This document shows, in pieces, positions 5,190 to 8,406 of a stretch of 25,695 nucleotides of DNA. The stretch covers positions 1 to 25,695 of IMG/VR virus record IMGVR_UViG_3300021371_000092; one strand, written 5' to 3'. The translations under genes and the position numbers were made by a program. The DNA is from a virus. Every line of letters starts with the position of its first letter. Position 1 is the first letter of the stretch. The notes below the pieces were generated by a model. It saw only the letters and a program-made list of their open reading frames with translations. It was not told the DNA's origin and did no database searches.

Positions 5190-5792
5190 TTAAAATAATT
5201 TAGTTTGCAGTTGATGGTCGTGCAAACGTTTCATCGCTGCATCGTAGTATTCCTTATCCAATTCACACGCTGTTAAATCAAAACCAAGATTATGGCACGC
5301 AATAGCAATTGAGCCACTACCTAAATGTGTATCCAGTATCTTGTCGCCTTCTTTGGCGTACTTCATTAAAAGCCATTCGTACAATTTTATAGGTTTTTGA
5401 GTTGGGTGTATTTTAGATTCAGGTACATTTTGAACTGAATATGAAAACATTGTAGATGTACTGCCAAGACCATTACTAATCGAAGCTAATTCACATTCTG
5501 AATATTTACCTTTTACTCCAGTTATTTTTTTATTCCAAACAACAAATCCTTTCCATTGTGGTAGCTGAAAATTGTTTGCCCCCCAAATTATTTGCTCTTT
5601 ACTTACCCTTATTAATTCATTCCAATATTCTGAGATTGGTCTACCCTCTAAACTTTCCATAGAACCTTTTGACCTCATTTCTTTTATTGGTTGGTTTCTA
5701 TCCCTATAAGGTGGGTCAACAATAGCAAGGTCAAAGTGGTTATCTTCATACCTTGCCATTAGCTCCATATTATCTTCGTTTGTTATTTTCAT
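5190..5792 (-). CDS. DNA methyltransferase (N4/N6 family), short form
   Basis: The 200-residue enzyme has the catalytic motif VDPPY at 25-29, the landmark HPTQKP at 129-134 and the cofactor-binding motif DTHLGSGS at 154-161. This is the same beta-class order as the ParB-fused enzyme at 1582-2769, but without the ParB domain. It probably methylates adenine or cytosine in a short target and protects the phage from restriction. It overlaps the next gene upstream by 4 bp (5789-5792). All catalytic motifs are present, so it should be active. Target specificity cannot be predicted. Confidence 0.9.
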   Translation of the reverse strand: MKITNEDNMELMARYEDNHFDLAIVDPPYRDRNQPIKEMRSKGSMESLEGRPISEYWNELIRVSKEQIIWGANNFQLPQWKGFVVWNKKITGVKGKYSECELASISNGLGSTSTMFSYSVQNVPESKIHPTQKPIKLYEWLLMKYAKEGDKILDTHLGSGSIAIACHNLGFDLTACELDKEYYDAAMKRLHDHQLQTKLF

Positions 5793-6125: not shown

Positions 6126-7043
6126 TTAAAAAGGTTCTTTTGTGTTTACGTTAAATATAATTTTCATCGGGTCTTTGACTATCTCATCCGTAGCGTATGC
6201 GTACTTCTTCACGTTGTTTAAGTGGTCAAAATCGTAAAACCTCTGAGTTCCCCAGTCTATATGGACAACACATTGCCCTATACTACCGTAGGCTTTTGGC
6301 TTTACCTTGTCAACGTATATCTCGTAGGGCTGGTGGTTCTCCTTAGAGCCTTTATGTACTACTACTATGTTCCTACCGTTGTTATTCCACTCAGAACCGC
6401 CCATCAAATCGTAAACCGTTGGCTTTTTTACGTTGCCGTCTTTCACTTGCTTAGGGTCTGGGTTCTTAGGGTGTATAATTATGAAGGAGTGCATCTTATT
6501 TATATCCATAAACCTATTACGCAAAGACAATATCTTCCTCAAATAGTCAGGGCTTGTAGGCTCTCCTTTGTGTGCAAGGTAGTTCCAGCTATCTATAACT
6601 GCTGAGTTACATTTAGCCTCTTTTGCATAGTTCCAAAATGCTTCGGGTTCTATATTATGCTCTGCGGATATAAACTTAAAAGAGTCTGATAATTGTGTAG
6701 AGTATTTAGCTATCTCTCGCTCTGTAATGCTATTACGATACCCCTTCTCAAAGGTCTTGCCAGTCATCTTATGGAGTAGGTTAGATAGTACTTCTGTATC
6801 GCTACCGTCATCAGGCATATATACGCAATGCCTCCAGCCTTCGTTCATAGTTAGACCCATCATTATCTCCTTTAAAAATAAAGACTTCCCAAAAAACGGG
6901 TATCCCGTTATATCCGTACATCCTCCCTTAACAAATGTTAATTTCTCATCAAAGGCGTTTAGTCCTATCTTACTCCCTTCGGGTATGCCGTACTTGTGAA
7001 GGTGCATTAGTTGGTCGAGTATTTGGCTTGTAGACTTTATCAT
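6126..7043 (-). CDS. Replicative helicase-like ATPase (RecA/DnaB fold)
   Basis: The 305-residue protein is a RecA-fold ATPase like the helicase half of T7 gp4, Twinkle and DnaB. Walker A is TGYPFFGKS at 46-54. Walker B is NSAVIDS, with Asp151. IIIHPKNP at 188-195 and GGSEWNNNGRNIVVVHKG at 215-232 match the later helicase motifs. No primase domain is fused to it. It probably unwinds the phage replication fork. It sits next to the replication initiator gene, whose 3' end it overlaps by 4 bp (7040-7043). It could be loaded by that initiator. A RadA-like or RepA-like ATPase is the main alternative. Confidence 0.85.
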   Translation of the reverse strand: MIKSTSQILDQLMHLHKYGIPEGSKIGLNAFDEKLTFVKGGCTDITGYPFFGKSLFLKEIMMGLTMNEGWRHCVYMPDDGSDTEVLSNLLHKMTGKTFEKGYRNSITEREIAKYSTQLSDSFKFISAEHNIEPEAFWNYAKEAKCNSAVIDSWNYLAHKGEPTSPDYLRKILSLRNRFMDINKMHSFIIIHPKNPDPKQVKDGNVKKPTVYDLMGGSEWNNNGRNIVVVHKGSKENHQPYEIYVDKVKPKAYGSIGQCVVHIDWGTQRFYDFDHLNNVKKYAYATDEIVKDPMKIIFNVNTKEPF

Positions 7044-7678
7044 AGGTTTACTTGCTTGGGTCTATGTTGCAGTAGCTCGGCTATATAATCAGCAGCTCCA
7101 TTCTTGTTACTTTGCCTGAATAGGAATTGAGGTGTTAGCTTATCCATCCAGAATGAGTCGTCGTGGTTATTTATAGCTTCTACTATTTCAGCAGCACTAT
7201 ATATCGAGAACCAGTACTTGAAGTTTTTAAGGTTATTCTTATTTGGCTTAAATCTCGTATTTTTTATTTCATTCCATTTTGAAATTAAAGACTTGTATTT
7301 GTTAAATATCTCTTCGCTTGTATATTCAACGCCTTTAGCGTCAGTATATTTCTCTTTCTCTTTCTCTTTCTCTTTCTCTTGCATAGAGGGGTCTACATAG
7401 GGTCCCTCTATACCCCCCTTGCAGGGGTCTACTATGGGGGTTAGTTTTATTTTCGTAGCATCCTCATAACCTTTGACTTGCAAGTCTATTGAATGCTCTT
7501 GACTGAGATATGCAAACCTAACCATCCCAGTAAGCTCTTTGGGTTTTAAGCCTTGAAACTGCCTATCTAATAAAGCCTCAATAAATAAAAGTTTCTCCTT
7601 GTCGTTTAGCTCATTGTAAACGTCATAATAAGAGCGATAGAATTTAAACGCTTTTCTTTTTGTGAGTTTTTGTGCCAT
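7040..7678 (-). CDS. Replication initiator-like protein with a repeat-coded linker
   Basis: The 212-residue protein has three parts. Residues 1-75 (RKAFKFYRSYYDVYNELNDK ...) resemble a helical domain common in phage replication proteins, of the kind often labelled DUF6291. A linker at 80-111 holds two VDP peptides and a (EK)5 run. The C-terminal part at about 120-212 looks like a DnaD/helicase-loader-type helical domain (FKPNKNNLKNFKYWFSIYSA). It lies directly upstream of the helicase gene. The linker DNA holds direct and inverted repeats (7351-7440) that may be an origin, as in the lambda O gene. The initiator role is inferred from context. Confidence 0.65.
   Translation of the reverse strand: MAQKLTKRKAFKFYRSYYDVYNELNDKEKLLFIEALLDRQFQGLKPKELTGMVRFAYLSQEHSIDLQVKGYEDATKIKLTPIVDPCKGGIEGPYVDPSMQEKEKEKEKEKYTDAKGVEYTSEEIFNKYKSLISKWNEIKNTRFKPNKNNLKNFKYWFSIYSAAEIVEAINNHDDSFWMDKLTPQFLFRQSNKNGAADYIAELLQHRPKQVNL
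7351..7380. repeat. Hexanucleotide tandem repeat, TCTTTC
   Basis: Nearly five copies of TCTTTC run from 7353 to 7380. On the coding (minus) strand they encode alternating Glu and Lys in the initiator linker. Because the unit is 6 bp, copy-number change would lengthen or shorten the linker without shifting the frame. Confidence 0.9.
7383..7440. other. Candidate replication origin inside the initiator gene
   Basis: A locally G/C-rich 58-bp patch in an AT-rich genome carries a 10-bp direct repeat AGGGGTCTAC (7387-7396 and 7423-7432, spaced 36 bp apart). It also holds an 8-bp inverted repeat ATAGAGGG/CCCTCTAT (7383-7390 and 7404-7411) and CCCC-TTGCA-GGGG (7415-7427). Iteron-like repeats within the initiator's own linker resemble the lambda origin. 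The function is inferred. The repeats could also simply reflect the low-complexity linker. Confidence 0.4.
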
Positions 7679-7680
7679 AA

Positions 7681-7896
7681 TTAAACTGGTTTTGCTTCGT
7701 TAATTAATCTTCTCAACTCTTTAGATAAAGCTATAGCAGTGGATACATCTAATCTAATCTCCTTACTTTCGCTATTTACTTCGTTGTAGTAGTCCCAAAT
7801 CTCAATAGTTATCTCGTCTTGGTCTGTGTTGGTTACTTGTATTTCGTTTTCAGAGTTGCACTCTTTGCCCATAAATACTTTTTTAAATCTACTCAT
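7681..7896 (-). CDS. Small acidic phage protein, first gene of the left operon
   Basis: The 71-residue protein starts at ATG 7896-7894 (MSRFKKVF). A frame-compatible TTG start 10 codons upstream is less likely, because the ATG follows an A-rich stretch as usual here. A C-terminal helix (STAIALSKELRRLINEA) follows a strand-rich acidic centre. I do not recognise it. As the first gene downstream of the leader RNA at 7936-8030, it would be the first product of the left operon and could be a regulator, but there is no clear DNA-binding motif. Confidence 0.6.
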   Translation of the reverse strand: MSRFKKVFMGKECNSENEIQVTNTDQDEITIEIWDYYNEVNSESKEIRLDVSTAIALSKELRRLINEAKPV

Positions 7897-7935
7897 AATT
7901 TTATAATGGTTTTTAAGATTAACCAATAAACTGAT

Positions 7936-7992
7936 AAAAAAAAAGACCTCACAATAGAAGTAGGTTAGGACTACTGCTAAAGATTGGTCTTT
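7936..7992 (-). terminator. Terminator/attenuator in the left operon leader
   Basis: On the minus strand AAAGACC (7992-7986) pairs with GGUCUUU (7948-7942), and the stem runs straight into six more U residues (to 7936). A smaller hairpin AGUAG/CUACU sits inside. On the plus strand the stem is followed by only three T, so termination is expected for leftward transcription. It lies about 40 nt before the first gene, so it could attenuate the operon or end a short RNA. Confidence 0.55.
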
Positions 7993-8030
7993 AAATATTT
8001 TAAATTTATAACCTCCTAACGGTTAATATC
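7942..8030 (-). ncRNA. Leader RNA with two hairpins and complementary loops
   Basis: The minus-strand RNA expected from the -7 element at 8035-8042 begins near 8030. Hairpin 1 is UAACC-GUUAGGA-GGUUA (8025-8009). Hairpin 2 is AGUAG-UCCUAAC-CUACU (7975-7959), enclosed by the terminator stem. The two 7-nt loops, GUUAGGA and UCCUAAC, are perfect reverse complements and could form a kissing complex. Hairpin 1 also contains AGGAGG, an SD-like sequence unusual in this genome. Attenuation, a small regulatory RNA or a DNA operator repeat are all possible. Confidence 0.5.
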
Positions 8031-8034
8031 TCTG

Positions 8035-8042
8035 CAAATATA
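8035..8042 (-). promoter_or_regulatory. -7 element for the left operon
   Basis: The minus strand reads TATATTTG, an exact TAnnTTTG match. It would start transcription near 8030, just before hairpin 1 of the leader RNA. A TTTG lies 11 nt upstream, too close for a classical -33 box. It lies back to back with the plus-strand element at 8068-8075. Confidence 0.5.
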
Positions 8043-8079: not shown

Positions 8080-8406
8080 ATGGAAATAATTTTAAAAGAC
8101 CTCCCTAAAATCTCCCTTAATAAGTGGTACGCTGGTATGCATTGGACAAAGAGAAAGAAGATAAAGGACAACTATACTCAGATAGTCCGCAGCCAGTTTG
8201 CTTCCCTTCTAAGCAAAGATAAGACTTATCAAGTAGAATACCACTTCACATTTAAGAGTAGACCCTTAGACGCTTCTAACTGCGTTGCTATGGTTAAGAT
8301 GATAGAAGATATAATCTTCGAGACAGATAGCTATAAGGTAGTAACGGAGATATTAATTACAAGCTCAAAAGGATTAGAAGATAAGGTACTTATTAAGCTA
8401 CGCTAA
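8080..8406 (+). CDS. RusA-like Holliday junction resolvase
   Basis: The 108-residue protein has the size and layout of RusA: an N-terminal LPKISLNKWYAGMHW segment, a basic KRKKIK patch, and an acidic core with Asp64, Asn67, Asp77 and Asp83 (PLDASNCVAMVKMIED, then ETDSYKVV). RusA enzymes cut four-way DNA junctions with acidic residues that bind metal. The usual DDxxV triplet is altered here, so activity is likely but not certain. It is the first gene of the plus-strand operon and would resolve the recombination intermediates made by the ERF protein and exonuclease downstream. No gene occupies the 112 bp after it; that gap holds a promoter candidate. Confidence 0.75.
   Translation: MEIILKDLPKISLNKWYAGMHWTKRKKIKDNYTQIVRSQFASLLSKDKTYQVEYHFTFKSRPLDASNCVAMVKMIEDIIFETDSYKVVTEILITSSKGLEDKVLIKLR

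Follow-up and report, generated by a model that had tools for sequence, protein, structure and literature searches.

We analysed a phage record of 25,695 bases from IMG/VR, the whole of which is referred to here as the window; its genes include those for terminase, portal, tail, ERF, DnaA-C-like and RusA-like proteins. A preliminary description of this DNA had set a pair of hairpins with complementary loops at a lysis/replication switch, but that is not where the element lies: its neighbors are a resolvase gene and a replication operon. On the plus strand there is a divergent gene for a RusA-like Holliday junction resolvase (8080-8406; PHROG 4632, E 1e-9), and on the minus strand a replication operon in which a 71-aa ORF, the first gene behind the leader (7681-7896), is followed by a 212-aa DUF6291 protein, a probable replication protein (7040-7678; Pfam PF19808), and a 305-aa primase/helicase-like ATPase (6126-7043; PHROG 239, E 5e-18). 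Two N6/N4 DNA methylase genes also occur on the minus strand of the window (5190-5792 and 1582-2769), and cultured relatives carry several as well.

The minus-strand layout proposed earlier is borne out. A Bacteroidota-type -7 promoter element, TATATTTG (8035-8042), immediately precedes hairpin H1 (8009-8025), with which the transcript is predicted to begin and whose 5-bp stem (UAACC, 8025-8021, with GGUUA, 8013-8009) presents the 7-nt loop GUUAGGA (8020-8014). A single-stranded, A/U-rich linker of 16 nt (7993-8008) leads from H1 to an intrinsic terminator hairpin (7942-7992) consisting of a 7-bp lower stem (AAAGACC, 7992-7986, with GGUCUUU, 7948-7942), a middle helix and an apical hairpin, H2 (7959-7975), followed by a U tract with a run of nine U (7936-7944). 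H2 reads AGUAG-UCCUAAC-CUACU, so that its 5-bp stem also carries a 7-nt loop (UCCUAAC, 7970-7964), and the loops of H1 and H2 are exact reverse complements over their full length. A strict descriptor applied to the 25.7-kb window picks out a single element of this type. The AGGAGG within H1, which had been thought unique to this hairpin, is not: the window contains 10 copies against 8.4 expected, and relatives retain H1 without it. Between the terminator and the small ORF lies a second short conserved motif, AGTTTATTGGTTAATCTTAAAAACC... (7897-7935, minus strand), with a possible GGU/ACC hairpin; a stretch in this position, roughly AATAGTTTATNGGTATCTTAAAACCNTTATTATTATGG, also precedes the ORF of about 70 aa in many other members (among them L285, L280, L276, L271, L044, L035, L057 and L295), and is perhaps a translational element of that ORF. 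Because the minimum free energy of the window leader shows only a modest gain over shuffled sequences (z = -1.86), the single sequence is no proof of a structure, and the case rests on its relatives.

Loop-loop pairing among related phages

Two distant relatives, whose DUF6291 proteins are 51-68% identical to that of the window over the best segment, share its anatomy but have other loops (GUUGCAG/CUGCAAC and CCUCUCAC/GUGAGAGG). When a descriptor was applied to 80 IMG/VR DUF6291 loci, 28 elements with high scores were found ahead of the gene and none in 400 shuffled regions, while 39 of these 80 related loci had no detectable element. A wider survey covered 342 loci (3.2 Mb) with a promoter-anchored descriptor that requires loop complementarity, and recovered 176 elements in 137 (overlapping) loci, as compared to none in 6.4 Mb of reversed and none in 6.4 Mb of dinucleotide-shuffled sequence. 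These reduce to 62 non-redundant elements, among which 51 distinct kissing sequences (6-10 nt) are represented and one or two elements (e.g., that of L205) may be chance matches; a very loose descriptor was dropped in favor of the stricter ones after yielding many chance matches. The same module is present in cultured Flavobacterium and Polaribacter phages as well as in IMG/VR contigs. A tblastn search of phage records with the DUF6291 protein of the window gave no matches, the cultured isolates being reached via neighboring genes, and a scan of genome contigs returned one irrelevant locus only. We infer that the members are phages of Bacteroidota-type bacteria, in most cases from their promoter type and from the few isolates.

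Because the main descriptor demands complementarity, elements were also selected without reference to the loops, the criteria being a TANNTTTG promoter and, behind it, a fold of exactly two hairpins, the second of which is an intrinsic terminator. In this loop-blind set (n = 87, non-redundant), the element's own loops are exactly complementary over at least 6 nt in 25/87 cases and over at least 7 nt in 16/87, whereas loops mispaired across elements reach these lengths in only 0.56% and 0.05%, respectively. The preliminary description had asked for a check on compensatory loop changes among related phages, and these are clear at three levels. Within the subfamily of the window (the window, L004 and L006), both partners have changed in four of the seven kissing pairs, and every pair is intact (GUUAGGA/UCCUAAC versus AUUGAGG/CCUCAAU). 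In an eight-member group, five of eight kissing pairs carry changes in both partners, pairing is kept in 96.8% of kissing cells, and sliding the partners by 1-3 columns lowers pairing of the whole structure to about 40%. And among cultured Flavobacterium phages, the elements of tooticki6-1, filifjonk9-1 and lillamy9-1 are nearly identical to that of the mumin-like record L269, the only differences in the pairing loop segments being GUGAGACG -> GUGGAACG and the compensating CGUCUCAC -> CGUUCCAC, which amount to two compensatory pairs.

Compensatory change of this kind lends good support to a strand-specific leader RNA in which two hairpin loops pair and which includes a terminator, and does not support a DNA operator, which had been put forward as the main alternative. 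Inverted-repeat geometry and the proximity of replication genes would suit a DNA-level feature, be it such an operator or the single-stranded hairpins of a replication origin, but the elements have a fixed strand polarity with a promoter before and a U tract after them, have stems with G-U pairs in 44/62 members, conserve pairing rather than sequence, and precede homing endonuclease genes too, all of which makes this explanation exceedingly improbable. At the level of sequence comparison, the alignments show the leader, with its terminator and loop-loop helix, to be a strand-specific RNA that is selected for pairing rather than for sequence. At the positions examined in stems, kiss and linker, no base is present at more than 70%, the linker (median 16.5 nt) being merely A-rich (51% A), and we saw no effector-binding sequence conserved outside the promoter. 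H2 is often joined to the terminator stem through an internal loop that is either symmetric and rich in purines (UGAA/GGAU, AA/GA, UGAU/UGAU) or loop-E-like (AGUA/GAA), for example in L322 and L051, and such loops may bend H2 towards H1.

Promoters, terminators and the genes behind them

In 57/62 elements, compared to 3.7 expected from shuffles, a strict TANNTTTG is found no more than 30 nt from H1, and because its median position is only 5 nt ahead of the hairpin, H1 should form the 5' end of the transcript. The -7 consensus is of the Bacteroidota type, as confirmed in Flavobacterium johnsoniae (PMC7366714). At the other end, the T tract is followed by a start codon after a median of 18 nt, and no promoter was found in this gap, so the downstream gene needs read-through of the terminator. 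The leaders combine the sequence features of a cis-acting transcription attenuator: a promoter upstream, an intrinsic terminator before the gene, and a gene that is reached by read-through. In Flavobacterium phages, the upstream operon has already ended, at an ordinary terminator, shortly before the module promoter, such that the leader terminator is not needed for that purpose; one of these ordinary terminators (L125 12565-12592, aligned in L126, L128 and L269) itself shows compensatory stem changes between phages.

The genes behind the modules are varied, and include those for DUF6291 proteins, a recombination-region protein of 145 aa, a DUF3987/primase-helicase, helicases, a ParB-like protein and NUMOD4/HNH endonucleases. 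Two or three orthogonal copies can occur in one genome before different operons: in such genomes, the loops of a module match each other over 6-10 nt, and loops of different modules over at most 5 nt. Modules stand 9-22 nt before HNH genes (mostly NUMOD4/HNH) in L125 (11603-12168), L025 (2869-3482), L202, L215, L222, L242, L269 and L322. Phage tooticki6-1 has a module with an HNH gene and filifjonk9-1 has neither, as if the two had been inserted together, and in mumin6-1 a helicase gene follows the module at the site of the DUF6291 operon. Given this presence and absence of module plus HNH gene and the exchange for a helicase, the module acts like a cassette of promoter and leader that can be exchanged.

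A transcript that is predicted to begin with H1 and whose 3' end is closed by the terminator might also be a small RNA with a function of its own, or a stability device with a compact, nuclease-resistant fold, to which the downstream gene is incidental. The short and fixed distance between terminator and start codon, retained before unrelated genes, speaks against this, as do the 51 kinds of loops, which offer no shared sequence for a common target, and we consider such a role rather improbable.

A putative kissing-loop attenuator

The reading that we favor, with a probability of roughly 0.6, is that of a cis-acting kissing-loop transcription attenuator, attenuation being suggested by the position of the leader. 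The comparison shows a host-type promoter that starts an RNA with H1 at its predicted 5' end, followed by the A-rich linker and a terminator tipped by H2, and H1 and H2 loops that pair over 6-10 bp of any sequence, each copy only with itself. This kiss would form co-transcriptionally once H2 leaves the polymerase, before the 3' arm of the terminator is made. The kiss might then alter the likelihood of timely closure of the lower stem, so that RNA polymerase would either stop after about 85 nt or continue into the replication or endonuclease genes just behind. The predicted strengths of the two structures are comparable (a median of -9.9 kcal/mol for the kiss and -16.8 kcal/mol for the terminator hairpin). 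The preliminary description had already suggested an attenuator in which a kissing complex sets terminator formation: its leader, loop-loop helix and terminator are well supported, and the control of termination by the kiss is what we infer from them.

As to the direction of control, we lean towards a kiss that opposes or delays terminator closure and thereby favors read-through, because the short linker must stretch nearly fully for the kiss and the complete terminator to exist together: a stretched linker barely spans the coaxial stack of H1, kiss, H2 and terminator, with a median ratio of 1.24. The opposite sign would be the less likely case. As a counterpoint to simple linker-spanning geometry, the linker shortens as the kissing helix lengthens (rho -0.55), and a simple geometric rule, by which linker length would grow with helix length, was dropped. 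Nor is classical antiterminator pairing the rule, at least half of the 5' arm being paired upstream in only 14/62 elements. Whatever feeds the switch, be it a phage or host protein, the speed of RNA polymerase or nothing at all, must be blind to sequence if it is common to all copies. One tentative possibility, which we hold to be a good deal less probable than attenuation as such, is that RNA polymerase or a factor reads, as transcription proceeds, the shape of the kissing complex but none of its bases, with the cassette used interchangeably, through orthogonal loops, for several replication operons and homing endonuclease genes.

The lack of an antiterminator helix, and of an effector-binding sequence conserved beyond the promoter, would also be expected of an unregulated partial terminator, in which the kiss merely aids folding and read-through is fixed at a low level. 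A weak promoter would be a simpler route to the same result, and exact pairing of 6-10 nt is retained through many changes; this explanation strikes us as very unlikely.

The loops could instead act between molecules, as an antisense control in trans of the kind seen in pT181-type attenuators or the c4/CI RNAs of phages P1/P7 and P4: the terminated RNA of about 85 nt would accumulate, its H1 loop would pair with H2 in other leaders still being transcribed, or its H2 with their H1, and replication genes would be limited, or related phages excluded, with a specificity set by loop sequence. The promoter and terminator would indeed give an abundant short RNA, and the loops diverge widely yet stay complementary, with no cross-pairing within a genome, as do incompatibility or immunity groups. 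But the two loops share one RNA at a spacing of about 45 nt, and cis pairing should therefore beat trans. Moreover, complementarity ends at the loop edges (extending beyond in 8/62 and 2/62 elements), whereas that of antisense pairs usually extends further, and TANNTTTG on the opposite strand is at chance in the 150 nt downstream (8/60 versus 7.7 expected). With loops that differ and opposite-strand promoters at chance, one trans antisense RNA for all copies is unlikely, and we regard trans control in general as unlikely too.

Relation to known regulatory RNAs

No family in Rfam 15 matches the element, nor is such an element described in the open-access literature searched. Kissing loops that act on terminators are known between two RNAs and within ligand-binding riboswitches; to our knowledge, there is no sequence-free version with one partner on the terminator itself. 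In plasmid pT181, the gene under such control is a replication gene. In pT181-type systems, the loop of a leader hairpin kisses to control transcription attenuation (PMC3753616). The phage leaders resemble these in coupling a kissing loop to an intrinsic terminator, as judged here by structure only, but carry both loops in one RNA, whereas the partner loop in pT181-type control is on a separate antisense RNA. The 7-nt loops of ColE1 RNAI and RNAII pair over their full length, but between molecules; they need an antisense RNA, and what they control is primer maturation rather than a terminator. HK022 put RNA consists of two hairpins that start early phage transcripts and act in cis on termination; the put hairpins are not known to us to kiss, whereas here the terminator itself bears one of the kissing partners.

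The c4 RNA of P1/P7-like phages and the CI RNA of P4 are phage leader RNAs upstream of their target on the same transcript, with covarying complementary segments. They belong to Proteobacteria and have another architecture, to which c4 RNA (RF01695) adds an Rfam family that does not match the element. The c4 antisense RNA is listed as a family (PMC2864571). A loop-loop tertiary contact within a leader that controls gene expression is found in the purine riboswitch (PMC4464220); a conserved core for ligand binding, of which none was seen in the phage leaders, sets this riboswitch and other pseudoknot leaders coupled to terminators apart. Judged by its sequence features, the element belongs to an undescribed RNA family, which fails the tested features of both pT181 (an antisense RNA) and riboswitches (a conserved core).

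The module appears to be a common start for replication operons in phages of Bacteroidota, a group whose gene control is little known. Being only about 85 nt long, available as many natural pairs that are orthogonal to one another, and present in cultured Flavobacterium and Polaribacter phages, it is directly testable and could become a source of components for RNA circuits in Bacteroidota. The only Rfam match encountered was a DUF805b RNA (RF02914, 49.5 bits) at L030 3990-4022, which falls outside the element, directly behind one kissing module and ahead of a ParB-like gene.
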